From assembly GCA_017965425.1 (NCBI GenBank), contig JAGCPY010000086.1, positions 23,031 to 87,030 on the forward strand: a stretch of 64,000 bases of DNA. The letters are read 5' to 3'. Shown here one piece after another: positions 12,295-43,606 of the stretch. The first letter of the stretch is position 1, and every line of letters begins with the position of its first letter. The position numbers were made by a program, and so were the translations under genes. Source of the stretch: Bacteroidaceae bacterium (lineage in GTDB: Bacteria; Bacteroidota; Bacteroidia; Bacteroidales; Bacteroidaceae). The notes under the pieces were generated by a model that did not search any database, was not told where the DNA came from, and was given only the letters and a program-made list of their open reading frames with translations.

Positions 12295-12331
12295 TCATTT
12301 TTATTTCTTCATTCTTATTCATTGATCTCTT

Positions 12332-13324: not shown

Positions 13325-13342
13325 AACTACTCCATTTGGCCA

Positions 13343-13374
13343 CAAATGTACGACATTTCGCAGACGTGCTCAAA
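13343..13374 (-). promoter_or_regulatory. Promoter of the porPKLMN operon
   Basis: On the minus strand TTTG (13374-13371) is followed after exactly 20 nt by TACATTTG (13350-13343). This is a full match to the Bacteroidetes -33/-7 pair and the best candidate to drive porP to the PorT-like gene. Transcription should begin close to 13337. Confidence 0.7.
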
Positions 13375-13439
13375 TTTTCTTGCAAAATTAGCGTACTAAG
13401 GTGTTATATTTAATAATAATTAACTCAAATTTCAGCTGT

Positions 13440-13740
13440 TAATAACAACCACAAATGACAGGAATAACTCCGATTCTTTATGGAAACTCACGGCAGAAGT
13501 AACTGAAAATGTGAACATGCTTACAGGAGTTGTCAGGAACGTGTACACCTTCCACGCATAAGGTGAACACCTTCCTTGTCGATTGGCAAGAAACGGTTCA
13601 CCAGCCCCTCTCATACATTGTGTTTTAGTCAAAAATCCCTCAATCCCTCACCTGCAATCATCTTTCTTTCAGAGAATTATCGCAATCGGTGAGAGATTGA
13701 GGTTTTTTTATAAAAAAACATGGGTGTGAGTTTACATCTT
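13440..13740. repeat. 22-nt-phased intergenic repeat, copy in front of porP
   Basis: This fills most of the 420-bp gap between the sensor-kinase gene and porP. Two blocks (13536-13587, 52 nt; 13645-13702, 58 nt) align without gaps to 62597-62648 and 63016-63073. Inside the first block, adjacent 22-nt units share ACACCTTCC. The second block carries CCCTCACC and, 43 nt later, GGTGAGAG followed by GATTGAGG and seven T. No open frame of note is present. Confidence 0.7.
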
Positions 13741-13747
13741 CTGTCAC

Positions 13748-16588
13748 TTACCGATTGGCAGCGGGGGTCGTACCATAAGTTTCCTTATAGAGACGGATGA
13801 AATGTGACAGGTCATAGAACCCGCATTGTTCTGCAATGTCCGCAAGCTTAGCCTCGGGATGTTCATGCAGCTGTTGATGAGCGAGATCCATACGCACCTT
13901 CATGATATACTTCTTGGGAGGCATTCCTGTGATGGCATTCATCTTTCTGCGTAATTGTGACGGAGTGATGTATAGCGCCGCCGCAATGCTCTCCACGTCA
14001 CAAGATCCTTGCGGAATGAGCCGCACGACAGTCTCATGCATTCTTCGCAAGAAGTCTTCTGAGCTCGATTGGAAGGACGGCAACTTATTGTCCTCCATCG
14101 GAGAAGAAGGCAATTCCTCTGGAACGGGGGTGGCCACCAAAGCTTCTGGTGACGCTTCATATTTCTCACGGAACAGTCTTCTGAGCTCTAAAAGCTTCTT
14201 GACGCGGACATTCAGTTCCTCTGTGTTAAAAGGCTTGGTAAGATAGGCATCGGCACCAGCCTCCAAACCTCGGATGCGGTCTTCTTCCGTGGCCTTGGCC
14301 GTGATGACGATGAGGGGGATATGATTGGTGACAGGATCTTCGCGCATGGTTCGGCAAAGTTGCAAGCCATCTGTATGCGGCATCATCAAATCGGTGATGA
14401 TGAGATCGGGCAACAGCTCGCGTGCTTTCTGGATGCCTTCTTCTCCATCGCTGGCGAAGTGAACGTCGTAGCCATCCCCCAGTTGATGGCTGATGAGACG
14501 AGCCACGTCGGAATTGTCTTCGACAATCAAGAGGGAAACCCTGTTCCCTGGCTCACGATTGGTCTGTTGACTCCCATTCTCGGACACGGCAGGAAGGGGT
14601 AATGAAGTGGGCTTCGCATAAGGTAGCTGAATCGTGAAAGTTGACCCCTTCTCGACTTGGCTCTTCACTTCTATTTTTCCGTGCAAGGCATCCACGATTT
14701 GCTTCACGAGTGCCAACCCGACGCCACTGCCCTGACCATAAGTTTCATCTGCTTGATAGAACGGCTCAAAAATATTGGGCAAGTCTGTGTCGGCAATGCC
14801 ATGTCCGTGGTCGGTCACGTTCAGAACCACTTGTTTGGCTACGACATGCAACGTAATCCCAATCCGACCACCTTGGGGCGAGAACTTGATGGCGTTTGAA
14901 AGCAAATTACCCACCACCTTCTCAACGTAGTCCTCAGTGAACTCTGCAGGAATCCCCTCTGGATCAGTTTCATAGTCTATGGAGATATCTTTCTGCCGCG
15001 CGACCTCGCGCTGTCTCTCCAATATCATGCCTACGTAAGCGGCGAGGTCTCCCTGAATCTGCTTCTGGGGACCGATGGCCGACTTCACTTTAGAGATGTC
15101 CAACAGCTGATTGACCAATGCCAACAAATGCGTGCCCTGCCGCTCAATGGTTTCGCCTATTTCGCGGAAGTCGGCATTTTCTTGCAATTCCTTTCCCAAG
15201 CCCATGATGACGGTCAGAGGAGTGCGAAACTCATGCGTGACGTTGGTGAAGAACGACTCACGCACTTCCGTCAGTCGCCGCAAAGCATCGGCAGAACGTT
15301 TCTTTTGTCGGAAAGCGAACCAGAGCGAAGCGATAACGGCCGCCAACAACAACACGATCACCAGTGTCGTTGATATGAGAATGCGATTCAAACGGCGGCT
15401 TTCGGTATTTTCCTCCAGCAATTCGTCGTTATGGAACTCTGCATTGGCCTGGCTCATCAATTCCTTCAACTGCTGAGCGTGAATGGTATCCGACATACGG
15501 ATGTAGCGGTTCAGCACATCGAGGGCGCCATGTGGGTCAATAGGCCCCATGGCTTCAGCCAGCGTGCGCAGGTCATTCCATGCAGCATGGGTGTTGCCTA
15601 CTTCTTCTTCCAGCCGAATGGCTTCACGCAACGCCTCCACTGCCTCTTCATGTCGCCCGATGTCAATAAGGTTCCAGCTCTTATATTCCAACGTCAACGC
15701 CAGTTGGTTGCGATCCAGCGGATTCTGGCTTTTCACGATAGCAATGGCTTCATCGGCCACTTGCAACCCCTGTTCATAATCTCCCTTACGATCAAAAGCA
15801 TAGCTTAGCTGCGTCAAGTGGTTAGCCACGCCTGGTTGATAGTTAATCTTGCGAGCCACTTCCACCGCTTTTCTGCCATATTCAATCGCTTTATCCACCT
15901 CCAAGGCACTACAGAAAATTTCACAGGCAATGCCCAGCGTATTATGCAACTGCACACTGTCGCCCAGCAATTCGTTGGTATCGATGGCTTTCAGCACAAG
16001 CGCTTTGGCTTCATCATATTTGCGGAGAGAATGATTGACCAGAGATAAATATAGGAACGCGCGTGAAAGCTGCAAGGTGTTCCCTGTATGCAAACACATA
16101 CGCATGGCCTCACGACCTACTTCCACCGCTGCCATGTAATCACTGGTCTTGAAGAGGCAATAAGCTTTATCACACAGCAAGGTTTCATGAACCTCATTAT
16201 CCTCGTTAGTGATTATTTCAAGTGCTTTGTTGATATAGTTCAAGGCTTCTTTATAATAAGAATTGGTGGTCAAGTATCGTCCCGCCGCAAACCACACAGA
16301 AACATCCTGCTGCTTTGCAGATTGCCGACCGTCATGAGTCGGGGGTTCACCAAAGAACACTGTTTGCTGACCACAGAGCTTCAGCACCTGCTCTCCAATC
16401 TGAAAGCGGGTGGTGCCTTTGCTGCTGTCATAGCATTCCAGCAGCGAATCTAACGTGGCTATGGGGTCGGGCGACTGGGCAAGAGCGGCAGGTGCATTCA
16501 GCAGCCAGATAATCATCAGCAGGCTCGAAGTCCAGCCCACAACGTTCCAATTGCGTTTCAACATAGAAATAACGTCCATTTTGTTCAT
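13748..16588 (-). CDS. Hybrid two-component regulator (TPR, kinase, receiver, AraC)
   Basis: One-polypeptide two-component system of 946 residues. Order: signal/anchor segment (WTSSLLMIIWLLNAPAALAQ), a periplasmic array of TPR helices (about 60-380), a membrane helix (LISTTLVIVLLLAAVIASLW), a histidine kinase with THEFRTPL (His452) and ATPase boxes (NLLSNAIKFSPQGG, GSGVGLALVKQIV), a receiver (LLIVEDNSDVA, ITDLMMPHTDG), and an AraC-type DNA-binding domain to the end. It should sense an external signal and act directly on transcription. It is divergent from the surface cluster at 16841, its likely target. Start: the frame opens at 16693, but a -7 element at 16621-16628 favours the ATG at 16588 (16579 and 16564 are also possible). 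Confidence 0.92.
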   Translation of the reverse strand: MNKMDVISMLKRNWNVVGWTSSLLMIIWLLNAPAALAQSPDPIATLDSLLECYDSSKGTTRFQIGEQVLKLCGQQTVFFGEPPTHDGRQSAKQQDVSVWFAAGRYLTTNSYYKEALNYINKALEIITNEDNEVHETLLCDKAYCLFKTSDYMAAVEVGREAMRMCLHTGNTLQLSRAFLYLSLVNHSLRKYDEAKALVLKAIDTNELLGDSVQLHNTLGIACEIFCSALEVDKAIEYGRKAVEVARKINYQPGVANHLTQLSYAFDRKGDYEQGLQVADEAIAIVKSQNPLDRNQLALTLEYKSWNLIDIGRHEEAVEALREAIRLEEEVGNTHAAWNDLRTLAEAMGPIDPHGALDVLNRYIRMSDTIHAQQLKELMSQANAEFHNDELLEENTESRRLNRILISTTLVIVLLLAAVIASLWFAFRQKKRSADALRRLTEVRESFFTNVTHEFRTPLTVIMGLGKELQENADFREIGETIERQGTHLLALVNQLLDISKVKSAIGPQKQIQGDLAAYVGMILERQREVARQKDISIDYETDPEGIPAEFTEDYVEKVVGNLLSNAIKFSPQGGRIGITLHVVAKQVVLNVTDHGHGIADTDLPNIFEPFYQADETYGQGSGVGLALVKQIVDALHGKIEVKSQVEKGSTFTIQLPYAKPTSLPLPAVSENGSQQTNREPGNRVSLLIVEDNSDVARLISHQLGDGYDVHFASDGEEGIQKARELLPDLIITDLMMPHTDGLQLCRTMREDPVTNHIPLIVITAKATEEDRIRGLEAGADAYLTKPFNTEELNVRVKKLLELRRLFREKYEASPEALVATPVPEELPSSPMEDNKLPSFQSSSEDFLRRMHETVVRLIPQGSCDVESIAAALYITPSQLRRKMNAITGMPPKKYIMKVRMDLAHQQLHEHPEAKLADIAEQCGFYDLSHFIRLYKETYGTTPAANR

Positions 16589-16620
16589 TCGAAAGAACTG
16601 TTTAATGTGATTTGGCGCAC

Positions 16621-16628
16621 CAAAAGTA
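16621..16628 (-). promoter_or_regulatory. Promoter -7 element for the hybrid regulator
   Basis: The minus strand reads TACTTTTG (TAnnTTTG), 33 nt before the ATG at 16588. No clear TTTG box lies 19-21 nt upstream. It supports discarding the longer N-terminus. Confidence 0.45.
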
Positions 16629-16736
16629 CAGAAAAAGTTGTAAATATTAACACGTTTTGAGCCCTTGAAACACATAATGTTCAAAAAATACATATTTTTT
16701 TTTGATATTTACATACCATCGTATTCATTTTGGCCG

Positions 16737-16744
16737 TATCTTTG
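16737..16744 (+). promoter_or_regulatory. Promoter -7 element of the surface cluster
   Basis: TATCTTTG matches TAnnTTTG, giving a leader of about 90 nt before the ATG at 16841. The usual -33 TTTG is missing at the right distance, as might be expected if the divergent AraC-type regulator activates it. Confidence 0.5.
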
Positions 16745-16840
16745 TTGCGTCTTTCTCTTTTTAAGAGCTAAAAAAGGGCCTCAAACCTTTAAAAACGTCT
16801 AATAATTCCATCACATTTTAACATCTTAACTTTTGTTCGT

Positions 16841-19800
16841 ATGAAAAAAATCTTTTCTCTATTGGCGCTGGTGCTCACGTGCGTGGGCGTGAATGCGCAA
16901 TGGTGGCAGGGTCTCGAACCGGACGAGTATGCGTACAATGACAATACCGTTGTCCACGCACAACTCACGACGAATCTGGCCAGCACCGATCTGAACATCG
17001 CCGCGTTCATCGATGGAGCGTGCCGTGCATCGGCCTATCCTGAGAGGGATGAATCAGGGATGCCCAAAATGTCAGAGAGCGGCAAGCCTGTATACATCTT
17101 CAACGTGCGAGGCAACTTGAACACGACACCTTCCGACGAAGGAAAGGAAATCAAATTCATGCTTTTTGATCCGAACACGGGTTTTGAGTATGAACTTAAC
17201 CAAAAGCTTACCTTCGATGGTGGAACACATGGCGGCAACATCTCTAACCCGACTATTAACTTTGAGCTGACAGCACCTGTTGGCGGCTGGTCACTCAACT
17301 TAGTCGAAGTGGAAGTGGGCAAACGTTACAATCTTGCCAACTACCTGACGGTGGAACCTGCAGGAGCTCAACTTCCTTCCAACTTGTGGTGGAAGGTGTT
17401 CATCGATCCCGATGGTGCGCAAGACATCAGTCCATACGTCCTTCATGAGGATTCTGTCGTGACGGGTGTGTCTCCTTATGATGGTTTGACGTTGCAACTG
17501 CTTTCTCCTGGCGATCCAACAGGTTCTATGGCGGCTGGCCTCTTGGCTGAATGTATCTTCAATGTCGTGCAATATGCCACGGGCATTGAGCTGATTGAGC
17601 CCACCACCATCACTGTGAAGAAAGATGACTTTGGTGCGATGAGTATGGCCATGCAGAGAGGAACAGCTTATAAGCTGAATCCCGAAAACGCTGTTGACAC
17701 AGTTGAATGGGAGGTCGAAGACGCAACCATCCTCCAGTGGAGTGAGCGTGGCTATTATATCCCCGTTAAGGGTGGTACAACGCGCATACGCCCGTACTTT
17801 ACTGATAGAAATAACAACAAGGTCTATCCTGCCAACGACGCATGGATTACCGTCAACGTCATCGTGCCTGTGGAGAGCATCGACATCGACCTCTCCCTCT
17901 TCAACGGAAAGTTCTTGGCCAATATGGGTGATACCCACCTCTACGAGCGTCTGAAACGTTTAGTAAAGATCACGCCTCAGGATGCAGACCAGACATACAC
18001 AGTTGAAGTCGAAACGCCAGGAGCCGTGACCCTCATAGGTAACACCACTCTCCATGCAGTACAACAGGGCGTGTCTACTGTCAAGGTCATTGCCAAAGGT
18101 GGCGACGACGTGACGGGTGCTCCCCTCTCAGCATCGGTTGACATTAAAGTCTTGAGTCCCCTCATCTCTGCCCAGATTCAGCAACCTACCATTTATATTC
18201 CTCTCATAGATGGAGTTGCTCAGAACATCGACGGCTATGTGCGTGACAATGTGATCTTTGATCCGAGTGACGGTTCGAATATGGGATTCTGCTCTTTCAC
18301 CCAAGATGGTACCAATTCCATCACTGCCGAGGGCGCTGGCATTGATATGGCCGGCATAATGGGTACCTTTACCGCAGTGGCTGCCGGCACCACCACCTTC
18401 ACCATCGAACTCAAATGGCCGGACTATGACAATTGGGGTGTCAATGGTGACGAGTTGCAGTACTTGACAACACCTTATACCTTTAAGATTGTGGTGACGG
18501 AGCAGTCTACGTTGATGGGCTTCAATGTGAGTGTGACCCCCGTTGCTGCCGGACAGACTGGCACACTGACCCTGATTCCGCAGCCTGTTGGAGCAACCTT
18601 CGAACCGGAATCCATTGTTGTTAAGATTTACAATGGGTTGGAAGGAGTTTGGGCAAACCTGATTACTTCCACGAAGAAGTCTGCCGCCGCAGACAAGATT
18701 GTCTATGAGTTTACCTCTGCGATTCCTGGACTTATCAGAGTCGCGGCAACCGACGTGGCAGGCGCTCGGTATACCATCAACGATGGTGCCTATCTCGAAT
18801 TCGAAGTAGGCAATCCGCTTCATCTCAGCACGGGATGGCAGTGGCGCAGTAACCCATACGGTGCCATCAAGGCAGCCGATTTCGAAAAGGTCTTCACCAC
18901 AGCCGCCCTTGATGAAATCCGCACCAGCAACCAGCTGCTCTATAATGACCCGTCATGGGGATTCTACGGAACACTCACCAACTCAAGAGGTATTCTGCAG
19001 GATCAGTGCTATAAGATCAAGATGAAGGCAGAGAGAGATACCGTGCTCTTTGCGGATCAAAACCTTGTCAACGGCACCTTCTCTGAGACCGACGGTTCCT
19101 ACTCCGTGGTTCTCAAGCCCGGATGGAACTGGATTGGCTCTCCTTACCTCTTCGACCATTCGTTGAGCGCCGCCATCGAGTCCAATGAAGGCTTGCTGTC
19201 TGGTACTGTAATCATTGGCAAGAACAGTCATGTCGAGCTCAACGAACTTGGCGTCTGGGAACCCAGTGGAATGATCTTGAAGGCTGGAGAAGGCTATGTC
19301 ATTAAGAACCTTTCCAATGCAGACGTTACCCTCAACTTCCGCAGCGAACTGAGCATGACTCCTCAAAACGAAGGTGCACAGAGTGGTGTGAAAGCCTTTG
19401 GACTGCGTGACAACGTCTGGGAATATGACCACTCTCGCTTCATGAACAACATGACGATGGTGGCCACGCTCGAAGGTATCGACCATCCTGAGCAGTACAG
19501 CATCGGCGCCTTCGTAGGCGAAGAGTGCCGTGGCGAAGGCTTTGTCTCGAACGGCAAGGCATTCATCACCGTACATTGTGATGCAGGTGAGTATGTGACC
19601 TTCAAGCTCTACAACCCCAGCACCAACGAGTACAGCAACATTCACGAAGGACTGCAAGCCCAGACTCGCGTGGGTTCGCTGAAAGCTCCTTTCCGCCTGC
19701 ACACTGGCAATGGAGCCGATGGCATTCAGAACCTCAACGGCAACAGCAGTAATACAGAGAGCTATGACCTCAGCGGTCGTCGCATCAACAGCCAGCAGCG

Positions 19801-19858
19801 TGGCGTAAGCATTCGCCGCCAGGCCGACGGAACCATGCACAAGGTTATTGTGAAATAA
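16841..19858 (+). CDS. Secreted surface protein with type IX sorting tail
   Basis: 1005 residues. It has a signal peptide (MKKIFSLLALVLTCVGVNAQ) and a beta-rich module at about 28-130 (LNIAAFIDGACRASAYPERD). Ig-like/Big-type repeats follow to about 650, then a Trp-rich region (TGWQWRSNPYG, GWNWIGSPY) and a second copy of the module near 870-950 (YSIGAFVGEECRGEGFVSNG). The tail YDLSGRRINSQQRGVSIRRQ with a basic end (KVIVK) is a type A-like C-terminal sorting domain, so export by the neighbouring type IX system and surface anchoring are likely. First gene of the cluster divergent from the hybrid regulator; a large hairpin follows its stop. The ligand or function is unknown. Confidence 0.85.
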   Translation: MKKIFSLLALVLTCVGVNAQWWQGLEPDEYAYNDNTVVHAQLTTNLASTDLNIAAFIDGACRASAYPERDESGMPKMSESGKPVYIFNVRGNLNTTPSDEGKEIKFMLFDPNTGFEYELNQKLTFDGGTHGGNISNPTINFELTAPVGGWSLNLVEVEVGKRYNLANYLTVEPAGAQLPSNLWWKVFIDPDGAQDISPYVLHEDSVVTGVSPYDGLTLQLLSPGDPTGSMAAGLLAECIFNVVQYATGIELIEPTTITVKKDDFGAMSMAMQRGTAYKLNPENAVDTVEWEVEDATILQWSERGYYIPVKGGTTRIRPYFTDRNNNKVYPANDAWITVNVIVPVESIDIDLSLFNGKFLANMGDTHLYERLKRLVKITPQDADQTYTVEVETPGAVTLIGNTTLHAVQQGVSTVKVIAKGGDDVTGAPLSASVDIKVLSPLISAQIQQPTIYIPLIDGVAQNIDGYVRDNVIFDPSDGSNMGFCSFTQDGTNSITAEGAGIDMAGIMGTFTAVAAGTTTFTIELKWPDYDNWGVNGDELQYLTTPYTFKIVVTEQSTLMGFNVSVTPVAAGQTGTLTLIPQPVGATFEPESIVVKIYNGLEGVWANLITSTKKSAAADKIVYEFTSAIPGLIRVAATDVAGARYTINDGAYLEFEVGNPLHLSTGWQWRSNPYGAIKAADFEKVFTTAALDEIRTSNQLLYNDPSWGFYGTLTNSRGILQDQCYKIKMKAERDTVLFADQNLVNGTFSETDGSYSVVLKPGWNWIGSPYLFDHSLSAAIESNEGLLSGTVIIGKNSHVELNELGVWEPSGMILKAGEGYVIKNLSNADVTLNFRSELSMTPQNEGAQSGVKAFGLRDNVWEYDHSRFMNNMTMVATLEGIDHPEQYSIGAFVGEECRGEGFVSNGKAFITVHCDAGEYVTFKLYNPSTNEYSNIHEGLQAQTRVGSLKAPFRLHTGNGADGIQNLNGNSSNTESYDLSGRRINSQQRGVSIRRQADGTMHKVIVK

Positions 19859-19871
19859 AATCCTCTTTGGA

Positions 19872-19925
19872 GTAAGGCTTCTGGGGTGATGACGCTATCT
19901 GCCCCAGAAACCCCAGAAGCCTTAC
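19872..19925. terminator. 15-bp inverted repeat after the first cluster gene
   Basis: Positions 19872-19886 and 19911-19925 are perfect inverted copies (GTAAGGCTTCTGGGG) around 24 nt, beginning 13 nt after the stop at 19858. Only an A/T-rich tail follows, without a clean T-run. It could terminate part of the transcripts and so make the first gene more abundant than the rest. Confidence 0.55.
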
Positions 19926-19982
19926 TTATATTTATTATTTAATTAAGGAACGCGCACACGCGCGATAACGACATCCTGAAAC

Positions 19983-21788: not shown

Positions 21789-21831
21789 GCAGATAATAAA
21801 TGAATAATGAATCAAAGATATATATAAGGTT

Positions 21832-33800: not shown

Positions 33801-35346
33801 GAAGACCGACGACACCAATGGCGACTTCGTGGCTTCAGACTCGAAGTCGGTGCAAGCCATCTGGACGAAGGACAACAAGACGCTGACGTTCTACTATGGT
33901 AAGCAATACAAGAAGGATGGTAAGTTCAATGGAAAGACCATCACCGAGGTGTGGAGCGTCCGCTCCGGCTACACTCCTTGGCGTGATACCGTGAAGGGCA
34001 TCATGACCACCGCCACGATTGATCCGTCGATGGCAGACTATGGTATGACCAGCTATTCCTATTGGTTCGCCGATTGTGCCAAGCTGACCACCATCAACGG
34101 CCTTACGAATCTGAAAACGAGCAGTTGCACGAGCTACAGCTATATGTTCTCAGGCTGTTCGGCCCTTACGACCCTCGATGTCAGCAAGTTCATGACCGAT
34201 TGGTCTCTATCGCAGTCTACGCGCATCAACCTGTCCGGCATGTTCTACAATTGCGAGTCGCTGAAATCATTAGATGTCAGCCAGTGGACAGAGACCAAAC
34301 GTGTGTCTAGCATGTCCTATATGTTCAAGGGCTGTAGCTCGTTGACGAAACTCGACATGAGCAAGTGGAACACCCAGGAAGTCACAACCATGTGCAGTAT
34401 GTTCAGCGGCTGTACAGATCTCACGAGCATCTCCTTCGGCAGCAGTTGGAATACCTCGAAGGTGACCGACATGAGCTATATGTTCATGGACTGCGAGAGC
34501 CTGAAGTACATTCCTGTCGAGTACCTGAACCCGCAGAGCGTGACCACCATGAGGGCGATGTTCAAGAACTGCTACGATTGGGCGGCATCCTTTGGACCGT
34601 ATGCGCCTTGGAAGTGGAACGTCGAAAAGGTGAAAGACATGAGCGAAATGTTCTTCGAGTGCGAGAGCGTCACCTCGTTGAACCTGACCGAGTGGAAGAC
34701 GTCGAGCGTGACCAATATGTCCAATATGTTTGCCTACTGTAAGAAGATTACAGACCGCAGCACAATCAGCCATTTACTTGATGTATCCAAACTCGATGTG
34801 TCGAAGGTGACGGATATGAGTGGAATGTTCAAAGGCTGCGGCGGCATCCGCGATCTGGACCTGAGCCAGTGGAACACCAACTCACTGACGAACATGAAGG
34901 AAATGTTCTACTACTGCTCCAAGCTGGAAACCATCGACCTCAGCCACTTCGACCTCTCCAAGGTCACCAATATGTATCAGGCGTTCTATAACTGCACCAG
35001 CGCCAATACCGTCGACCTGCGAGTGTCCAAGGTTTGGAAGGCCAGTACGAAGAATTGTCTCAACTATGCCTTCAGCTATGTGAAGGGACATGTCCTCTTG
35101 AACCACAATGCCCAGATTACTGGCGAAAGCAAGTATGCCTGCTCAAACTACTCCAATCAATTCTTGATCAGAGACTGTGATTCGGGTACCTACAAGACCG
35201 ACATGGTGAAGACATTGAAGAACCTTGGGTCCAAGACGTACAAAGCCCTCCCCAATGCTACCCAGGAATGGAAAGATAGAGATGGCAAGATTTGGTGGTA
35301 CACCATCAATTCAAGAAATGGTGCGTACCAAACGGTATATGAATAA
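21832..35346 (+). CDS. Giant secreted BspA/DUF285-repeat surface protein
   Basis: 4504 residues, by far the largest gene here. The signal core (LLFLLFSLFSFFSAPLRAQ) follows a His/Ser-rich leader of about 25 residues encoded by AAGTCCCAT-like repeats. Residues about 45-190 resemble the TANFOR domain of Bacteroidetes surface proteins. Then come fibronectin-like regions, an acidic Lys/Glu linker near 343-370, and a long unrecognised beta-rich part (about 560-2740). From about 2745 to 4450 there are 36 BspA/DUF285 units of the type DMSYMFSGCSSLxxLDLS, in five blocks starting near 2745, 3042, 3401, 3746 and 4007. Each block opens with a beta module (IWTKDNKTLTFYYG). BspA-type repeats in other oral bacteria bind fibronectin, fibrinogen or other cells. 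No type IX tail is evident. Function is inferred as adhesion. Confidence 0.85.
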   Translation: MITEKAYKSYQTHESHTAHKSHSTFLLFLLFSLFSFFSAPLRAQDVTVTVTPTQPILPPQVMLYITEPANYFNISLTNTGKDIANVYLVMQVEQVNPSSGLSITTPANRQPKMPIVVPANGSRILAPAEVRGLFNHIPLNEIKAPNDLFDNYTNGSFGLLPEGQYELHFTAYRWDPTLPDPVVASSPTGGLAVFNVCYKAQAPEFLTPAVISQDLMAVAEIDPLAPQFTWKAPVVACNPTVLQYTYSLRIVEVLPNQLPDNSMDHNPVVYQASNLSTPMCMIPQTVIKQMKEGTTYAAQVTAVSANVNKQMLNYVSIENDGKSTYKLFRLKASEKPKVVPNIDQERKNDDVDEELKKKEEEDKNKEDEEGFIRFGKSEGVGTEDKDSLFTYRNPVLLAPSFVEGGVRQVFTNDPIEVKWDPVWHIGGAGKNPDDNKFEYEVRLYKGDEEADREETMKTEPIWKLRTKELTTTIEWEDIEKKTKVGDYLLLEVKPIITKGKSIAFTEDDNINDFGLNERLSRKYFQCEARVEINDKNPTSKSAQDLKGKVVAIGEYFLTIDDIKGSGDMGFSGSGRVEWKPFGASIMVCVTFDNLKINKSDIVYEGICVSAKAPEMLSSMAVVDKLFSDWGIDNLIGESGLPYADKLQTEATGKIKSIAEKANIGDYYAKIQKGKDLFKLLTSGKMDKLYMPVKFPTEVLPSKFDAVDLQIVEMKFAATYATMNIMGEAIMPECDVLKSKVLLFGAPRICISPNKFLPDDGQIALLGDFTLTPSDMEITFKAPKDPITPKDGCYISWNSTEKGSKLELLGIDADMKVEGMYKEVNGKLTNDLAVMNLRASVGSWDDLLVDNISVEDFQLKDLPGWTFQAQDVVYDHSDYRNSDKMGEFPSGYDKKESECDKDINKWHGLHIGKVGVAFPKSLELGDIDEEHKDKRLWVGAKEMFIDKSGVTVIIGANNVFEAKEGTLGGWGISLDEAHVQIIQNDFDNCGFTGQINVPILKRQKGSEHEGEFGNVKYTCQIRDLSNPKNEKGKKNTKDKPTRLSYIFLTEQVEPLDFSFLVAQAELDPVQTYFLVDAYDDDKKPGEIKTQIELCLGGDIGIGLIDNANAWLKEKTESLPLQLKIPELHFTKMRFSNVSESDDWVINDKRVEDKRKARDEKAQAIHDAALKILVEGKEFNVGTTQEPFYIDLGEWSFSSAPKHLGPFSFNLTEFKPNFESKNKKVTLEVGGSIGLCEVLDVGAKVLISAKVDIPDIKKPKTWSISDGDVEFKKLELDLDWTALHFHGELEATTEPDKGYSGALDIEIVGFFKLDCKGGYYEHKKDEKDNNDRDFAWGYFMASIESGAGIHVDPVVINRISGGFFFNCRPTKGKNKFDGDPKAAYGNIGVAFGLGLSTTAGEQALKADLDMLVVYDSYNKCLSTFMLNGKVEAVGGMIKAECSLIYENEKNTAHETVNRYLCLNLTVEAGMDSNALLDKVKGMNASLEKLQGKLDEFQGEIDGVYQRVKNASSGMGALSGDYENPNSDGTEVKEKNKEQSKEFEASAGSVKVSLEFKVTWVKDKVAYKTPKWHLYLGEPDKAHRCTFTYLKFKSPICSVDIGADGYLCLGNELPNGGALPDIPDKITKFLAGEKSSTTDMGADLGKAQRSRKAAAKALLDPNSLNGGVMVGASAWGSINIDLGLLYGSLEAIAGFDAALVNYGDMAYCMNSGKAMGYKGWYAMGQLYAYLAAELGVHIHIGNFINEKISILDAGIGGVLEMGLPNPTWMEGSARIKISLLGGLCKINKKFDFSAGDHCVPFKGNALDGFEMFQSVSHGSDSLYQALLDPTFAISVDDAKHMTFTTQSSIGSHYRLLDPSWEAELADKDETTEEDIEKAMALNASRTYVFDMDQDLNYYGMKKGVRLFDLGTAATDLIKNGKGTKDELDKAMRTNTYWTTAQNAQDDKPLFKNLSDYVSNIMYERSGTVAETSMIMSSPELNSSVTDYLADTWQSRIDEVITTGTLTVKDGKKNVQLTALEYNPTEVNCSFREQKGTTFHLTGMNLKPGHSYVLFLMADAYEIDNGRRVWCEYIKDGKPKRIHWRQTKAWFFRVKSNTEDKIITDSLRDLEPYIALAYPSYNGTRVLDNHGEGDVRAYFDDIMKPTIALNRDIRTSLPANKMKWVLEGYTAAGDTLKPQTRNAVYQQNGNCINLEPSSPFKPFDEFTAAAKGKSNYDFSQEKYRLKLLYTYRHKELVTGQRAKFMKDPYYDRGDSTVALVDMPIITLPHDVTLNRGTFTDSWKVVTQKENTELLAYTKPFVGATMDSIPNILYESDYTSKGLTDEDFVFKNTKFESANLPYRLIDPYMYFAYLGKWVFIGDREIGTYAFDNTPVKFGSESLIYNYNGTVVNSEFLKVDKKKGEKNKTLLELRDQMYSVWNTWNYNDGNHPKYPLPSVGSTIGGVTANNQDGKTSTVTPIDINHVYTVKLDYSYVFEDLVKDYVAVYNVADQLSTKLRSASRDVLNKFYNRMNIEKGSCNSKLFNTNFNYDLKQWNNLHRGQYIEIEDRGYNVRVPYYQLPLIFGGCFGSDNDVAVYGAPTSNPQTLDKSYRTLGASIGEDDLSSGDGDPEYARLSKRWDTQASNLLFFRLCGATKGDKIYGYDNYLFSVYKELYDNNYPSSYHVNWDDFQRNKALEQVTRFKARIYRVDGYDIDKGLYVVTDKNKGRGGGPWEESVNIGMETSYIKNLADMYKSVEEQDAYRETHYDKQIPQVLWCNDTKTLIFLCTSQIWKAGDKYPSGGKDMKGTVTWVYTEDRVKDKNWRNYTIMQNCTNVYVNQSFGLRTYEGTDDLKGFFEDFKKLTTVKNVGVLTSASTKDMSYMFKGCEKLTDVDFDNKYYTTWTKSVTSMSHMFDGCKSLKKLDLTQFNTSKVRGMTSMFEGCESLTSVDLSSFTGESLMGTSYMFYGCKNLSSIDISTIGGVELTSSVSRMFEGCTALRTLHMDILDPRQMTEWEMRDMFKGVSNRLTCYYYSGLHQYIVKQIPGTKKAVADQRAKVVYGRCSNGDEALFFLFTPNKFKVGYSYTITPQYVDLDGSMSNSDIWNKKYPETEYNVTVKGVWQGDDVTNTWGAPQWSTGASTVKYVYIDKAFSSAKPASTYSWFKNFSNVRAFHGLCYLNTELVTDMSYMFQNCSQVERLGLGNFDSGGFRVDTKFQVANVTKMTSMFQGCSKLEELSMYKWDVSKVTTTYNMFNGCSKLTFTDYRTKWPLNDFKNVTDMSYMFANCSSLENTDPLYGLRIATDKVTDMSRMFSGCSSMKVIPYFTSTEKVTKMNGMFSSCSNLQKADFTPYKTDNLKQVERMFDYCSSMEEINLGNNTLSQVTSATDMFRNVNKPSYIYLPGDATRIINVCSASTFPNRIILSPAYAIVLRSGSYFEMMLYGKRTTLKSGDRCDIYPYEGYTVEKVLSSTNIQNSTDRPEWENWYSIYPKIKKIVIHSSFSDVPLLNAKMYFADMSELTEIKGLGNLDVSKAKDVSYMFSGCPKLETVDGTIYLTSATNAASMFWGCKSLKKIPVSFSTSDVLIRTDGMFQGCSSVSEIGSSYNYPRLGNVENMSYMFSGCSNLYNLAISRLNTSKATTMEGMFSGCSSLSESSLKGIKSFDTKNVTSMAYMLKGTQMSELDLSTWNTGAVTNMSGMFADCSQLRKVQLGSNWTLSNLKSYTTTAGFSGVHDLAVLVPAAKLSSIKSAFTDKQGFKVGSTGQFYDENVKGTAQVIWTRSNKTLTFYYGMPVGSTFNNLTVTQKWTGDDVLSNSNTKAKWIDAVKGDVTTVTFDKTFSEARPTTTKGWFNGCKKLTTINGLENLCTCYSVTDMSYMFNECEGLTELSFDNSRPLWGTSKVTNMSSMFSGCKNLKKLVLTRFNTEKVTNMFSLFYDLRGIEKLDVSMFNTSSVTTATYLFYYMTNLRTLIVGSNFTFPKLSSTAYAAFSGVKKCEITATSTVINSVKSSIKSKLGFIEKTDDTNGDFVASDSKSVQAIWTKDNKTLTFYYGKQYKKDGKFNGKTITEVWSVRSGYTPWRDTVKGIMTTATIDPSMADYGMTSYSYWFADCAKLTTINGLTNLKTSSCTSYSYMFSGCSALTTLDVSKFMTDWSLSQSTRINLSGMFYNCESLKSLDVSQWTETKRVSSMSYMFKGCSSLTKLDMSKWNTQEVTTMCSMFSGCTDLTSISFGSSWNTSKVTDMSYMFMDCESLKYIPVEYLNPQSVTTMRAMFKNCYDWAASFGPYAPWKWNVEKVKDMSEMFFECESVTSLNLTEWKTSSVTNMSNMFAYCKKITDRSTISHLLDVSKLDVSKVTDMSGMFKGCGGIRDLDLSQWNTNSLTNMKEMFYYCSKLETIDLSHFDLSKVTNMYQAFYNCTSANTVDLRVSKVWKASTKNCLNYAFSYVKGHVLLNHNAQITGESKYACSNYSNQFLIRDCDSGTYKTDMVKTLKNLGSKTYKALPNATQEWKDRDGKIWWYTINSRNGAYQTVYE

Positions 35347-35365
35347 TAAAAGAAAGCATCTGTAT

Positions 35366-37657
35366 ATGAAATGTAAATCCATATTGTTGAGCGCCCTCTT
35401 CCTGACCTGTGGCCTGACGGCCACGGCTCAGGTCGCAGACACCACGGGTATTAATCCTCATACAGCGGTCAAACAGCCACGGGTGTTGCCGCGCCTGACA
35501 ACTAAAATCCACCTCCAGACACGCGCCTATGGCGACAGCATTGTGCTGCGCTGGGCCACCGAGGACTTCGTGTCCTACAACTATCTGGCCCGCCTCGGCG
35601 TCAACGTGCTGCGTGTGCCGCGTGGCATGGTGGGTGACACGTTGGATGTCCCCGAGTTCCGCATCGACACGATGGCCTACGAGCTGCTGCCCCTCACCTT
35701 GGAACAGTTCCGCAAGAAGTATGCCCCCACCGACAGCAGCGCCTACATCGCAATGGGGTTGCTCTATGGTGATAAGGAGAACGTACACAAGGCGGGTGAA
35801 GGCTTCGCCTCTGAGACGCAGAACCGAAGCGACGATCAGGACATCTCCTACGGCTTCGCCATGTTGGTGGCCGACTGGCGCAAGGACCTGGCCACAGACA
35901 TGGCTGTGCGCTTCACCGACAAGGATGTGGAACCCGGACGCATCTACGACTACTACGTCCAGCCCACGGTCTGGGAGAATGGCGGTAAGCTCATCTTTGA
36001 GCCGGGCGTGGCAGAGGGCGTGGCAAACGTGCCTTACGTGCCCGAACCTTACTTGCCCCACATGAAAGACTCCGTCGCTTCCAATCACTCCGTGCAGTTA
36101 GGCTGGTGGGACGGTTTGCACTCCAGCTTTGAGGTGGAACGCCGACAATCGGCGGATCTGAAGGGACAGGCCGTCGACGACACCTGGCAACGCATCACCC
36201 GCAAGCCCTACGTGCCGATGGTGCAGCAGCCTGAGGGCGAGGACTACTGCCTTGTGGTCGACTCCGTGCCGCAGTTGGGACTCTGGAACTATCGCATTTT
36301 TGGTTACGATCCTTTCGGTGAACTGACGGAACCTGCCGAGCGAAGCATCATGGTCATGGACCTTGACCCGCCGACACCAGCCAACCTGAAGTACATCGTC
36401 ATCGAGCGTCCCGACGACAACGACCTCATGTCAAAGGTCATCGCACACGTCGTCTGGGAGAAGGACTCCATCGAAGAGGATATGGCTGGCTATCGCATCT
36501 TCTACAAGCCGATGCGCGACAACGGCAACGGATGGCAAGCCATGAACTTCGACCTCATCGCACCCCAGGACACGTTGTTCTCCATCGACATGACGGGCAA
36601 GCGTACGGGTATGATGTATATCTCGGCCTACGACGAGACAGGCAACGAGTCGAAGTCCTTCATGCAGCAAATCCGTCTGACGGACTATAAGGCTCCGGCC
36701 GTACCCGACAACTTCCGTGCCGAAGTGCGGAAGATCGACATCGAGACAGACACGGCTGTGCTGCGTACTAAGTGGGCTTACGTAGACCTCTACTGGCAGC
36801 CCAAGGCCGAAGACGATGATATCGACTACTTTGATATTGCCTTTGCCAACGACAGTACCCACGAGTTCCTCGTCCGCAACGAAGGTGGTATCCGCCAGTC
36901 TGCCTACACCGACTCCCTCTCGCTGAATGCCAACCAGAAGTATATCTATTACAAGGTGCGTGCGATCGACCAGAGCACGAACATCGGTGATTGGAGCGAT
37001 TGGATTCAGGTGGAACGTCCACACATGACACCGCCGACGCAGCCTCACTTGGGCGAGTCCAGTCACTCCAATGAGCATGGTATGCACATGGAATGGGTCG
37101 TGGGAGCAGATGCCGACATGAAAGAACATGTCCTCTACCGCCGTCTCGGTGAGGATGGCGAGGAAGAGGTGCTTGCCCGCTACGATGCCGACTCGGTGAA
37201 AGCTCACAACAACATCATCATCGTCGACGACAATCCGCCCTACGTGCAACGCGGACGCTACTATTACTGGATGTCGAGCGAGAACGCTTCGCCTTTCATC
37301 AGCCATAGCATGGCCGTGAGCTGGAAGCATCAGGGACCGCGTTTTATCGCTGTGGATACCAAGCTCGAAGGAACCTTCCGTAGCGACGAGAAAGCCGTCG
37401 CCCTAGGATGGGGACTTGATCCCACGTCCCTGCCCGAAGGCGACTGGTATTGGGCCATCTTCCGCAAGGCTCCCGGTTCCGACAAGTTCGTCTACTACAT
37501 GTCTGCCGAGCAGAATGCCCGCACCTATACCGACCATAGCCTCAGCGCCGGTGAATCGGCATCGTATTATATCCGCCTGCAGTTCGAAGACGGACGGTTC
37601 AGTCCCAACTCGAACGAGGTCACCATCACCTATCAGGAACAACCCACAAATCCATGA
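35366..37657 (+). CDS. Secreted fibronectin type III-like repeat protein
   Basis: 763 residues from the ATG at 35366, which gives a clean signal peptide (MKCKSILLSALFLTCGLTAT). Another ATG at 35339 overlaps the giant gene's stop; the frame is open still further upstream but only inside that gene. The body shows repeated beta-sandwich blocks with FN3-type features (QLGWWDGLHSSFEVERR, VPDNFRAEVRKID, YYKVRAIDQSTNIGDWSDW, YYIRLQFEDGRFSPNSNEVT). It ends without a sorting tail. The stop overlaps the next gene by 4 bp (ATGA), and the gap to the giant gene is 19 bp, so these genes are co-translated. Likely a surface partner of the giant protein. Confidence 0.8.
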   Translation: MKCKSILLSALFLTCGLTATAQVADTTGINPHTAVKQPRVLPRLTTKIHLQTRAYGDSIVLRWATEDFVSYNYLARLGVNVLRVPRGMVGDTLDVPEFRIDTMAYELLPLTLEQFRKKYAPTDSSAYIAMGLLYGDKENVHKAGEGFASETQNRSDDQDISYGFAMLVADWRKDLATDMAVRFTDKDVEPGRIYDYYVQPTVWENGGKLIFEPGVAEGVANVPYVPEPYLPHMKDSVASNHSVQLGWWDGLHSSFEVERRQSADLKGQAVDDTWQRITRKPYVPMVQQPEGEDYCLVVDSVPQLGLWNYRIFGYDPFGELTEPAERSIMVMDLDPPTPANLKYIVIERPDDNDLMSKVIAHVVWEKDSIEEDMAGYRIFYKPMRDNGNGWQAMNFDLIAPQDTLFSIDMTGKRTGMMYISAYDETGNESKSFMQQIRLTDYKAPAVPDNFRAEVRKIDIETDTAVLRTKWAYVDLYWQPKAEDDDIDYFDIAFANDSTHEFLVRNEGGIRQSAYTDSLSLNANQKYIYYKVRAIDQSTNIGDWSDWIQVERPHMTPPTQPHLGESSHSNEHGMHMEWVVGADADMKEHVLYRRLGEDGEEEVLARYDADSVKAHNNIIIVDDNPPYVQRGRYYYWMSSENASPFISHSMAVSWKHQGPRFIAVDTKLEGTFRSDEKAVALGWGLDPTSLPEGDWYWAIFRKAPGSDKFVYYMSAEQNARTYTDHSLSAGESASYYIRLQFEDGRFSPNSNEVTITYQEQPTNP

Positions 37658-38505
37658 GCCTCATGAGAAAATTTGCTAAGACACTTCGCCTGCTTTGCTG
37701 CACCTCCCTTCTCGTGCAGCTCGCCAGTTGCGGCCTGCTCGACTTCGACGTCGATAGCGACTTCTCGAAGATAGCCGCCGAAATGTCGCTCAACTACGAT
37801 ACCGTCCATGTGCTGGTCGGCGACACCGTGGACCTGCGACCGTCGTTTAAACCAGATACACTGAACCTGCGCGATGTCTATGTGTCAACGTCTGATACAG
37901 ACGTGGTGGTGGTTGATATGCTGACGGGACGAATTTCTGCCGTCGGCGTGGGATGGGCCAAGCTCTATGTGCAGTCGGTGTCGGCGCGCTTGCAGGACAG
38001 CTGCACCGTCCATGTCATGGAGACGTGGGTGGACAAAACGGCCATCTATCCTTACGAAACGGTGTTCTATGCCGAGGTAACCGTCAACGGGAAGTCCCTG
38101 ACCGAGGCGGACATGGAGAACATCAAGGTGGGTGCCTTCGTGAACGACGAGCTTCGCTGCTTAGGCGAGTTCCTCAATATTCACGGAGTCGGACGAATGG
38201 TGTTCCGTGTGGGAGGCGAAGACACCTTTGGCAATATCTATCCGTCTGCGACGCAGGAAGACGAGAACGTCGATGAGGAGGACGAGGACGAATCCATTTT
38301 TGGCGACAAGGATGTCTTTGATGATGACGAAGAGGAGGAAGAGGAACAGGAGAACGTGTTCGTTCCCTCGGACAAACCGCTGCCCATCGTCTTCCGCTGC
38401 CACGACAGAAAGAGAATGAAGCTCTATGAGTGCGCTGTCAAACCCGTCTTTGATGGCGGAAGGCAAGGTGAGCCGTCGAAACCCTATAAAATAGTATTCA
38501 AGTAA
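37654..38505 (+). CDS. Lipoprotein with Ig-like and GAF-ECRG-type module
   Basis: 283 residues. A signal with lipobox QLASC makes it a lipoprotein. A Big-type Ig-like domain follows (VHVLVGDTVDLRPSFKPDTL, SAVGVGWAKLYVQSV). Next is a module, TVFYAEVTVNG with IKVGAFVNDELRCLGEF, that matches the two modules in the 1005-residue protein of this cluster. A long acidic stretch (about residues 206-238, mainly Asp and Glu) splits the module before its final strands. The start codon overlaps the previous stop (ATGA); codon 4 is an alternative. It likely holds part of the surface complex to the outer membrane. Confidence 0.75.
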   Translation: MSLMRKFAKTLRLLCCTSLLVQLASCGLLDFDVDSDFSKIAAEMSLNYDTVHVLVGDTVDLRPSFKPDTLNLRDVYVSTSDTDVVVVDMLTGRISAVGVGWAKLYVQSVSARLQDSCTVHVMETWVDKTAIYPYETVFYAEVTVNGKSLTEADMENIKVGAFVNDELRCLGEFLNIHGVGRMVFRVGGEDTFGNIYPSATQEDENVDEEDEDESIFGDKDVFDDDEEEEEEQENVFVPSDKPLPIVFRCHDRKRMKLYECAVKPVFDGGRQGEPSKPYKIVFK

Positions 38506-38521
38506 CTTAAAATATACATCT

Positions 38522-41023
38522 ATGAATAATCATCATCAGAGAGGTTGGGGATGGATCCTCGTTTTATTCGCTATACTCTTGACGGGCTGTACCCTCTCGA
38601 TGGAGGAATGGCAAGTGGCAGAGGAGGATAAAGGCTTCGACGAACCTGAGACCGTTGAGTATGAATACGGAACCCTCACCTATCAATACAAGGAGGGCGT
38701 ACGTTCCATCACCGAGAATGTCCAGCAGTATATCATCCGTTACGAGAACCTGCCGGAAGAGCATATCATCCTCTATTTCATGGATAATACGCCCAAGGAC
38801 TGGGTACCCCAGAAAGGGGATCTCCTGACGTCCATGTGTACGCTTACGCTGCCTTTCGGACTGAACCACCGTGTGACCTCTGTGGTCAAGGCCGATGGCA
38901 TGTACAAGGTGGAGTGTGAACCTGCCACACGTGATGATATCTTTGAGGATCTTGTTTTTGAATTCGACGCAGATTATCATGTCCCTAACGTTGCTGCCTA
39001 CGACAGTCTTGCCCTGGACAGCCTTGGCATCGATCCCAACGACCTCATAATGGAGGATTTCTCCATGATGGAGGAACACTATGGCCAAGGGGCCATGACG
39101 CGTGCCGGATACCATTCGAGACTTCGTTGGCGTGATACACCTGCGTTCCGGAAACTGCGGGAGGCTGGACTCGTCAGCCTCGGAGGAACACGTGCGGGCG
39201 ATGATGATGATGATAAACCTAAAACAACAGAAGATGATAAGGACGAGTCTCAGGTATTCTTCCTGAGTAATCTCGGGATTACGGTGAACTTCGGGCAGAA
39301 TGTCTCGCTCTCCCTGGGCGGATCCATCACCACGCATGAGGTAGAGCATGTGTGGATGCATGAGGACAAGAAGAAGGATTACAGGAAGCAGGTAACAACC
39401 ACCAGTAACTATACTGATTATGATGTGGACGTCCGCTTGGGAGTCAGTAAGAATTTCGCCAAAGATCCAGAGAAGTGGAATCCCAAGGATCTTCAGGAAA
39501 TGATGGGGATTCTGAAAGTAGTGAAAGATAATCTTTCGGGCTTGCCGAAAGAGCTGAAGCAACATAAAAAACCTCTTACCTTTGTCAATATCCGTGCCCC
39601 GATACCTGGTACGGTGTTCTTCCTCGTTCTCAAATTAGAGGGAGGTGTCACGCTCGAAGGAGGAGCGCATGGCTATTTCGAGGCCACTGTTCATGACCCT
39701 GTTACGAAATCAACGTATGTCTACGATAAGGGAAATGAAAGCAGCATACCCCGCAAAAATGCTTCCAAGGATGAAAAGGACAAGAAGGGTATCGTCAAGG
39801 CGGGGTACACCGAGTTGAAAGATATGTCGCTGGTGGGCGACATGAAGCTTGAAGTATGGATTAGACCTGCCATTGGTGTTGAGCTGTCTGCAACAGGATT
39901 GGGTTGTGACTTGGGTTTCAAGGCATCGGTTGGCGCGAAGGCCAAGGTTGATATCGCATCGTTCACGGGTTCAAAAACGGTGGTGATGCCCTCCACACCG
40001 GATGGATTGGAATTCTACCTCTCAGGTGAATTGGCGGCAACTGCATACTGGTCTCCGGCAGGATTCAATCTCTTTGAAGCCAAATATACCTTCTGGAATC
40101 CTTATAAGAAATTGGGAGAGATTATCTTTTCGCCCGTCGTCAACAAGGGCAACGTGAATAGTTCCATTAAAGAGCTTGGCGACGACAAACGGAAATTCCA
40201 CGTGGATTATAGTTTCAGCGAAACCTGGCTTGGTGTCCGGCCCATCAGCAAACATGTTTTCTTACCGCGACTGAGGGTGTATCATGGGGCATTCACGGGG
40301 AAGTGCTTAGAGCTCAAGACTGGCGATGGCCTTACAGAACAAGAACTGGCGAAGCGCACCACCTATGAGTTCGACTTTGACGATGATGATCTGTTGAGCA
40401 AGGAGGCAACATATATCTGCGTGCCATGTATCTATGACTTCAATGATGACAGGACGTATGAATTCCGGGATGCAGCCAAGGTCTTTGGCGACGGAGGACC
40501 CATCATCAAGTTCCTGGATTTCAAACAGCGGTACGGAACTACTGCAAGTATGTATTTGAGTCAAAAGACGGATCTTTTCTTTGATCAGGAAATAGTTGAT
40601 CAGTATTACAAGGTATTCCGTGATCGATTCGGACTCAAGAAAGGCGATGAGAAGTACGTGAGATTCTTTGAGTTTGGCGCAAAGTACGAGGTCAAGAACA
40701 TCAATTTGTATAAGAAGTGGGGACTGAAGGTGAAGATATGTGTACATTCTAGTGGCAGGACTCTGATAGAGAAAGATATAGATGTGGTCACCTATGATGA
40801 AGACACAGGTTCGGAAAATTCTAAAACTCCTGGTAAGAAAACAGCCGTCATCTCTTTTGTTACCAACTATGACGATGATTTGGATGTGTATCTGACGCCC
40901 TATGTCTATGACATAAACGGTGAACGTACAGACTTCCCGACCACAGGACCAAAGTTCCTTGATGGCCATTCATTCTACAAGAAATTCGATTGGTCGGGCG
41001 ACTGGGGTTCAATGGACCTCTAA
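38522..41023 (+). CDS. Large lipoprotein, last gene of the surface cluster
   Basis: 833 residues with lipobox LLTGC near residue 23. The N-terminal third includes a conserved-looking beta region and an Asp-rich linker (AGDDDDDKPKTTEDDKDES). The middle has Gly-rich alternating strands (NLGITVNFGQNVSLSLGGSI, GCDLGFKASVGAKAKVDI, LSGELAATAYWSPAGFNL) that could form a barrel or a long beta-solenoid. I do not recognise a family. It starts 16 bp after the previous gene and is followed by 880 bp without genes, so it closes the operon. Confidence 0.7.
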   Translation: MNNHHQRGWGWILVLFAILLTGCTLSMEEWQVAEEDKGFDEPETVEYEYGTLTYQYKEGVRSITENVQQYIIRYENLPEEHIILYFMDNTPKDWVPQKGDLLTSMCTLTLPFGLNHRVTSVVKADGMYKVECEPATRDDIFEDLVFEFDADYHVPNVAAYDSLALDSLGIDPNDLIMEDFSMMEEHYGQGAMTRAGYHSRLRWRDTPAFRKLREAGLVSLGGTRAGDDDDDKPKTTEDDKDESQVFFLSNLGITVNFGQNVSLSLGGSITTHEVEHVWMHEDKKKDYRKQVTTTSNYTDYDVDVRLGVSKNFAKDPEKWNPKDLQEMMGILKVVKDNLSGLPKELKQHKKPLTFVNIRAPIPGTVFFLVLKLEGGVTLEGGAHGYFEATVHDPVTKSTYVYDKGNESSIPRKNASKDEKDKKGIVKAGYTELKDMSLVGDMKLEVWIRPAIGVELSATGLGCDLGFKASVGAKAKVDIASFTGSKTVVMPSTPDGLEFYLSGELAATAYWSPAGFNLFEAKYTFWNPYKKLGEIIFSPVVNKGNVNSSIKELGDDKRKFHVDYSFSETWLGVRPISKHVFLPRLRVYHGAFTGKCLELKTGDGLTEQELAKRTTYEFDFDDDDLLSKEATYICVPCIYDFNDDRTYEFRDAAKVFGDGGPIIKFLDFKQRYGTTASMYLSQKTDLFFDQEIVDQYYKVFRDRFGLKKGDEKYVRFFEFGAKYEVKNINLYKKWGLKVKICVHSSGRTLIEKDIDVVTYDEDTGSENSKTPGKKTAVISFVTNYDDDLDVYLTPYVYDINGERTDFPTTGPKFLDGHSFYKKFDWSGDWGSMDL

Positions 41024-43529: not shown

Positions 43530-43544
43530 TAAAAAAACCATCAA

Positions 43545-43586
43545 GCCCACCCCCGACCCCTCCCTGGGGAGGGGAGAGGAGTGGGC
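43545..43586. repeat. GC-rich palindrome before the sorting-tail gene
   Basis: GCCCAC and GTGGGC enclose CCCCTCCC-tg-GGGAGGGG, a nearly complete hairpin in the 77-bp gap after pruA. It could terminate pruA, but it is the same CCCTCCC/GGGAGGG type as palindromes found inside coding regions at 313-337, 45122-45153 and 46734-46823, so it is listed as one copy of a dispersed repeat. Confidence 0.65.
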
Positions 43587-43606
43587 AATTTGTTGACTAT
43601 AAAGCT

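Follow-up and report, generated by a model that had tools for sequence, protein, structure and literature searches.

A Bacteroidales gene cassette pairing a predicted outer-membrane barrel with a giant protein that carries a TANFOR-like head

What does a run of six genes for exported proteins build in a gut-type Bacteroidales genome, and is it one system at all? The question is raised by a stretch of 64,000 nucleotides (the window) from a Bacteroidaceae bacterium (NCBI GenBank assembly GCA_017965425.1, contig JAGCPY010000086.1, positions 23,031 to 87,030, forward strand), in which six genes, A to F, run rightward and the third encodes a protein of 4504 residues. An earlier sequence-only reading had described a self-contained surface-complex operon with a dedicated regulator beside genes of the type IX secretion system (T9SS). 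The answer proposed here, to which a probability of roughly 50% is given, is that the operon is the Bacteroidales branch of a phylum-wide system built around a predicted outer-membrane barrel (B), a giant protein with a TANFOR-like head (C) and an array of FN3 domains (D), in which the head would dock on B as its carrier or anchor. The features of the locus are as follows.

13748 to 16693, minus strand: regulator gene, divergent from A, with TPR, HisKA, HATPase, receiver and AraC domains (Pfam)
16737 to 16744, plus strand: TATCTTTG, candidate -7 promoter box 5' of A; agrees with TAnnTTTG in all 6 close relatives aligned
16841 to 19858, plus strand: A, exported protein weakly similar to Big_2; its tail resembles T9SS type A and its N-terminal domain is common to E
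19870 to 19927, plus strand: stem-loop in the A–B gap with a U-rich stretch behind it; may act as an attenuator or as a stabiliser of A mRNA
19983 to 21788, plus strand: B, predicted outer-membrane beta-barrel of 601 aa, the best-conserved cassette member
21832 to 35346, plus strand: C, giant exported protein of 4504 aa in a single open frame
21862 to 22845, plus strand: C residues 11–338, TANFOR-like plus FN3-like head (hidden Markov model (HMM) of ten heads, E 3.5e-20)
23464 to 27381, plus strand: C residues ~545–1850, conserved beta-rich core, a separate gene in some loci
30172 to 35343, plus strand: C residues 2781–4504, PARCEL/DUF285 leucine-rich repeat (LRR) tip, by domain matches
35366 to 37657, plus strand: D, exported FN3 array, start taken at ATG 35366
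37654 to 38505, plus strand: E, lipoprotein with a Big_2-like domain and a domain homologous to the A N-terminus
38522 to 41023, plus strand: F, 833-aa lipoprotein whose lipid cysteine is followed by an acidic region

The gene places, the 4504-residue length of C and the divergent TPR-kinase-receiver-AraC regulator all agree with the sequence-only reading, and the export signals it ascribed to all six products (signal peptide or lipobox) are likewise seen by eye in each. Its small gaps or 4-bp overlaps hold for B–C, C–D and E–F (43, 19 and 16 nt); the only overlap, of 4 bp, lies between D and E, and the A–B gap of 124 nt does not fit the description. The start of D is most likely the ATG at 35366, the mechanical open reading frame (ORF) start being a TTG at 35225, inside C. 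The six genes would be expressed as a single transcript and their products would form a single complex at the cell surface.

The claim that the six genes stay together was examined by a neighbourhood survey, the test that the sequence-only reading had itself suggested, and it is borne out by a conserved order. Among 28 same-family loci, counting only those with enough sequence left and allowing one intervening ORF, the step from B to C is kept in 27/27, that from C to D in 21/21, that from D to E in 20/20 and that from E to F in 14/16. A second set, drawn from named records (the window and the 80 best of 123 loci found), overlaps the first in genomes and its counts are not additive to it; here C directly follows B in 80/80 scorable loci and A lies directly upstream of B in 75/76. 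D follows C in 39/45 of the named loci; three of the six misses (L160, L183, L199) do hold D, masked in gene calling by an antisense ORF, and in the other three (L131, L184, L202) C is split or short. In L131 the C core and a PARCEL tail occupy two ORFs (11881–21809), either a split gene or a disruption.

The same evidence bears on the explanation that the six genes are chance neighbours or are separately expressed. The 124-nt A–B gap, with a stem-loop that could stop transcription after A, speaks for it. The B–C, C–D and D–E order, kept in all scorable same-family loci and in several copies within one genome, speaks against it, and chance neighbourhood is largely refuted because independent genomes share this gene order; the explanation as a whole is regarded as very improbable.

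Conservation extends well beyond the family. In 20 phylum-level stretches, B is in the ORF set of 19, and C, recognized by a model of its core, comes next in 12 of these. In L121, L123 and L125 B is followed by a large ORF (974–4137 aa) with a TANFOR-type head and no C-core label, in L128 C lies just before B, and L111, L114 and L124 hold neither a C nor a TANFOR-head ORF. D follows C in 11 of 13 scorable stretches, and E follows D in 0 of 10, E being sought with models built from length-filtered sets (it shares a domain with A). B, C and D are the phylum-wide core, more widely spread than A, E and F. Pairwise distances of A, B, C and D across 37 loci correlate with r of 0.70–0.90, a level reached by none of 999 permutations, although species descent alone could explain part of it.

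Searches for B hit 30 of 301 genomes from the family and 64 of 395 in a phylum-wide sample (the window genome is counted in each), with up to four matches per genome and more than one in 4 of the 30 family genomes. F matched only 6 of 151 family genomes and is a poor probe because it diverges fast. The window genome itself has three cassettes: that of the window, one on contig C4 (L011) with all six genes, and one on contig C59 (L106) with A, B, C and D, the last at the edge of the stretch examined. L106 has two tandem A genes before B and a 4130-aa C with internalin/LRR_4-type repeats; such a tandem A pair precedes B in at least 12 of the 80 named cassettes (L162, L171, L173–L175, L190, L192, L195, L199, L200, L207, L208). 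Many named records are rumen or hindgut Prevotellaceae or Bacteroidaceae assemblies, and isolates among them include Hallella seregens ATCC 51272 and Prevotella sp. P3-122. The cassette is a large, unannotated Bacteroidales apparatus; the phylum-wide B–C–D core, the kinship of C with TANFOR proteins and the A–B stem-loop go beyond what the sequence-only reading had noticed.

The kinship of C was established with an HMM built from ten heads that the curated family TIGR02542 had selected, none of them taken from a C protein of a B–C cassette. All ten seed heads score under the curated TIGR02542 cut-off (67 bits), so that "TANFOR-type" here means homologous, not certified. In a whole-genome search this profile finds the head of the window C at E 7.1e-15 and that of the C4 copy at 1.3e-11, and does not match the C59 copy. 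Against 916 ORFs it gives 93 matches below 1e-5, namely 90 ORFs labelled C and three large ORFs that immediately follow B; of the C ORFs longer than 1400 aa, it matches 77 of 108. TIGR02542 itself matches 8 of 67 heads at E<=0.1, the best at 4.6e-13 (a level of ~51 bits). C is organized as head, beta-rich core conserved to about residue 1850–1890, variable middle and, in the window copy, a PARCEL/DUF285 tip. A sequence search of the core against the PDB gave a single weak match (E 0.21).

The occurrence of B and that of TANFOR-type heads are closely tied. In the phylum sample the ten-head profile matches 64/64 B-bearing genomes and 14/96 B-less ones (0/16 and 14/80 in the two B-less groups tested). 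When the six B-bearing genomes that supplied seeds are omitted, 58/58 still match (p 2e-29). The curated TIGR02542 matches 12 of 395 genomes, none over its cut-off, and 11 of them carry B (p 1e-8). At 84 B places, a TANFOR-type head lies directly downstream on the same strand within 1.3 kb in 53 and within 15 kb in 20 more (73/84 in total). B is best read, from these sequence comparisons, as an outer-membrane protein dedicated to carrying or anchoring proteins with a TANFOR head. A link between TANFOR proteins and a barrel was not found in print among open-access papers, taken without supplements.

The arrangement of head and core in other loci adds to this. In L224–L226 (Flavobacterium-like, the genus being deduced), a protein with a T9SS tail, a TANFOR-type protein, further exported proteins, B and a headless C core stand in one run. 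The core directly follows B there as a gene separate from the TANFOR-type protein, and it is also separate in L119; in the window head and core form one chain. That the two are split in L224–L226 and fused in the window argues for their joint action. In L224 the protein before B is a PKD protein. L121 and L123 show a T9SS-tail protein, B and a TANFOR-type protein, which is the A–B–C order. Secreted proteins of ~390–410 aa, with C-terminal ends that look similar by eye, lie near TANFOR-type genes in the Flavobacterium-like loci L121 (9840–11012), L225 (11252–12421) and L227 (7805–9040).

Carrier barrels of this general kind have a precedent in SprF/PorP (parts of PMC9143113, PMC12618676 and PMC12635249). 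Like the carriers that serve adhesins with a type B C-terminal domain (CTD), B is an outer-membrane barrel gene next to a giant-protein gene; unlike them, B (601 aa) is nearly twice as long as the window PorP (337 aa) and unrelated to it by profile, and C has no type B tail. B may therefore act like SprF by analogy without being a PorP/SprF relative. The six copies compared have a mean column identity of 66%, and an amphipathic strand pattern appears by a rough home-made score taken without a control. No curated Pfam or NCBIfam family matches B, its sequence search of the PDB was also empty, and the Pfam/NCBIfam scans gave no POTRA or Omp85 match.

Two-partner secretion and contact-dependent inhibition systems (CdiB/CdiA) place a barrel gene directly 5' of a gene for a giant protein whose N-terminal head is conserved. 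The likeness to B and C lies in that arrangement; B differs in lacking POTRA/Omp85 domains, and the head of C is of another kind.

The export of TANFOR proteins is an unsolved problem, for which their discoverers suggested the T9SS on the basis of neighbouring genes (PMC7073777, in the parts covered here). B matches nothing curated in Pfam or NCBIfam and may therefore have escaped a neighbourhood survey based on domains; the words "barrel" and "porin" are absent from the covered text of PMC7073777, in which the C core, E and F are not seen either. The co-occurrence of B with TANFOR-type heads names a single gene as candidate partner for these proteins. A bolder version would make B the first member of a third class of outer-membrane carriers in Bacteroidota, besides PorV and PorP/SprF. 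Such a carrier would recognize an N-terminal TANFOR head and not a C-terminal tail, and B would hence be the partner still missing for the export or anchoring of TANFOR toxins and adhesins; this is put forward tentatively, as a possibility on the doubtful side.

A number of observations weigh against the proposed system. TANFOR-type heads occur without B in 14 of the 96 B-less genomes, and 11 of the 84 B places, including the third copy of the window genome, have no such head within 15 kb. The ten-head HMM leaves 31 of 108 C ORFs longer than 1400 aa unmatched at E<1e-5, among them L011 and L106. TIGR02542 exceeds its curated cut-off in 0/395 genomes and has 0 matches in the window genome. The window C has no match to a T9SS/CTD tail at E<=1. 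The barrel itself is a prediction from sequence pattern, and its comparison with the window PorP (hhalign probability 0.6%) and with PorV by profile, both on shallow alignments, shows no relation. An AraC-type regulator does not adjoin 24 of 54 loci. The presence of SprA does not separate genomes with B (27/30) from a hand-picked group of genomes without it (20/25; p 0.45).

TANFOR proteins (TIGR02542) were described as Bacteroidetes polymorphic toxins, with SprB, FN3, PKD and T9SS-tail domains enriched near their genes and export by the T9SS proposed (Jana, Salomon and Bosis 2020, PMC7073777, in the parts covered here). C shares with them a TANFOR-like and FN3 N-terminal head, a Sec signal, large size and T9SS-tail and FN3 neighbours; it differs in having no toxin domain found, no immunity gene downstream and a head under the curated cut-off. 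C could nevertheless be a true TANFOR polymorphic toxin directed at other cells, with B as its exporter and a toxin tip of novel type. The head on C, the toxins and the T9SS-tail and FN3 neighbours of published TANFOR proteins (in the covered parts of PMC7073777) and the clustering of TANFOR-type proteins, B and the C core in Flavobacterium-like loci all favour this. Toxins of new type would escape family scans, and the TANFOR-type proteins of L224–L229 also show no toxin domain.

The tails of C argue otherwise. A scan of 67 tails, which comprise 65 of C or TANFOR-type proteins and two of neighbouring T9SS-tail proteins (L121, L123), gave matches to 17 Pfam and 5 NCBIfam families at E<=1e-3, none of which is known as a toxin family. 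The last 300 aa could be aligned in 25/25 pairs at 75–95% core identity, 36/38 at 60–75% and 94/99 at 50–60%, falling to 238/406 at 40–50% and 354/1200 at 30–40%; by this sequence comparison, C tails appear mostly to follow the core by descent. D, and not a small immunity gene, follows C in all 21 scorable same-family loci. The toxin explanation is on these grounds unlikely. Testing found neither a toxin domain nor an immunity gene, and the head lies under the curated cut-off; C is therefore classed as a relative of TANFOR proteins and not among the TANFOR polymorphic toxins.

The window C ends in an LRR tip of PARCEL type. It matches DUF285/LRR_5 and, with 344.9 bits over 21 stretches, TIGR02167 (PARCEL). 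PARCEL-like motif runs were seen in 11 cassette loci with a loose pattern used without a control; of five other long C tails scanned, three are free of LRRs and those of L106 and L107 have repeats of the LRR_4/internalin type, so that LRR tips are of two kinds, PARCEL and internalin/LRR_4-type. The tip is the same as that of PARCEL/DUF285 surface proteins (PMC2996958) and BspA-type LRR proteins; unlike in those, the repeats of C are added to a TANFOR-headed, barrel-linked protein. In the covered text of PMC2996958 the strings "Bacteroid" and "Prevotella" occur 0 times and "Flavobacter" once. The best reading of the window branch is that it would be an adhesion or recognition form of TANFOR-headed proteins.

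An envelope scaffold is a further explanation, with C held in the periplasm under B and only A, E and F facing outside. C has a Sec signal and no T9SS tail, and the two T9SS-tail matches among the 67 tails most likely come from the two neighbour proteins, as expected if C stays within. LRR tips of PARCEL/BspA and internalin type are known, by their family names, from surface proteins, and the covered parts of PMC7073777 hypothesize that TANFOR proteins exit the cell; a periplasmic C is judged improbable.

In the proposed carrier system, A would be exported by the T9SS through its C-terminal tail and C would cross the inner membrane by Sec. The TANFOR-like head of C would then dock on B, which would carry or anchor C at the outer membrane, in a role like that of SprF towards SprB, leaving core and LRR tip outside the cell. 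D and the lipoproteins E and F would brace the complex, and E, displaying the domain of A, may tether A. The tip would recognize a partner such as a host glycoprotein, a plant particle, a protozoon or another cell. The divergent regulator would turn the operon on, and the stem-loop after A might lead to A being made in excess.

The sorting tail claimed for A receives mixed support. The window copy matches neither TIGR04183 nor PF18962 at E<=1; 7 of 20 homologues match TIGR04183 at E<=1 (best 8.5e-7) and 4 of 20 match PF18962 at E<=0.1, and a similar C-terminal tail is seen by eye in most A proteins listed. Because A appears to end in a T9SS-type tail and so presumably requires the T9SS, the description of the cassette as self-contained in the sequence-only reading is not supported. 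The N-terminal domain of A and the domain of E are related (hhalign E 7e-10), and HMM/hhalign comparison found no relation between F and the C core. At 43457–44857, behind a gene for L-glutamate gamma-semialdehyde dehydrogenase, lies an ORF similar to the A/E models with a T9SS-style tail and no NCBIfam match.

A barrel, lipoproteins and a hybrid kinase/AraC regulator resemble polysaccharide loci in outline, and B could accordingly import a substrate that C, D, E and F capture, in the manner of SusC/SusD and under control of that regulator. SusC/D and glycosidase or other enzyme domains are absent from the six proteins, as the sequence-only reading had held in setting polysaccharide utilisation aside, and B has no curated family match; nutrient capture is considered quite unlikely.

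The stem-loop between A and B recurs across loci. In the 124-nt gap of the window the fold has a minimum free energy of -46.8 (z -7.2 against dinucleotide shuffles). With a strong hairpin defined as a stem run of at least 7 pairs at z<=-3 against mononucleotide shuffles, gaps of at least 30 nt hold one in 49/67 A–B cases versus 4/57 for B–C, 1/16 for C–D, 0/9 for D–E, 0/4 for E–F and 1/10 between tandem A genes. For gaps of any length, where short gaps of twice-sampled genomes may count twice, the figures are 49/88, 4/106, 1/65, 0/21, 0/14 and 1/14 in the same order. The stems vary in sequence between loci. In a separate fold, at least 6 T within 12 nt follow only 18 of 51 strong hairpins, and plain termination is therefore unlikely as their general role; attenuation, stabilization of A mRNA or processing are candidates. 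Origin from a repeat family was rejected, the sequence being found once in the window genome. No Rfam match was found in the window, and a terminator scan 3' of F found nothing. Within the A–B gap (19859–19982), a second small GC-rich stem of the ACGCGCACACGCG type lies just 5' of B and is kept in close relatives, with what look by eye like paired changes.

The regulator that the sequence-only reading called dedicated is so in part. Upstream of the cassette, the first gene encoding 200 aa or more is an AraC-type regulator in 30/54 loci versus 4/127 for other, non-cassette genes of the same loci (p 2e-15); the remaining loci lack it. Divergent orientation is seen in 20 of these 30 regulators and co-directional orientation in 10. 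When compared with the window regulator, 22 of them match in the TPR part and 19 in the kinase-receiver part, and 11 show no kinase. The box upstream of A follows TAnnTTTG, which we take to be the Bacteroidales -7 promoter motif.

The last part of the locus is its T9SS neighbour. As had been reported, porPKLMN lies just beyond the regulator.

7041 to 13345, minus strand: porNMLKP, in left-to-right order, left of the regulator gene

PorP, PorK, PorM and PorN were found beside none of the other cassette loci examined, within a few kb of flank (PorL is not scorable, being masked by the gene caller even in the window). The neighbourhood looks particular to the window genome, and porPKLMN was rejected as part of the cassette system, T9SS genes not being conserved beside other loci. 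One genome (G010), listed as 100% complete and carrying several cassettes, has no SprA match, through an assembly gap or a real loss. At the end of porPKLMN, 6378–7010 encodes a small TDE1717-type barrel that scores under its model cut-off.

Further along the window, a run of small genes at 49320–55004 resembles by eye a modification/defence and toxin–antitoxin patch. Beyond it, 14 kb downstream of the cassette, an exo-beta-1,4-galactosidase-like protein is encoded at 55277–57979 (NF049890, 1114.7 bits against a cut-off of 1500).

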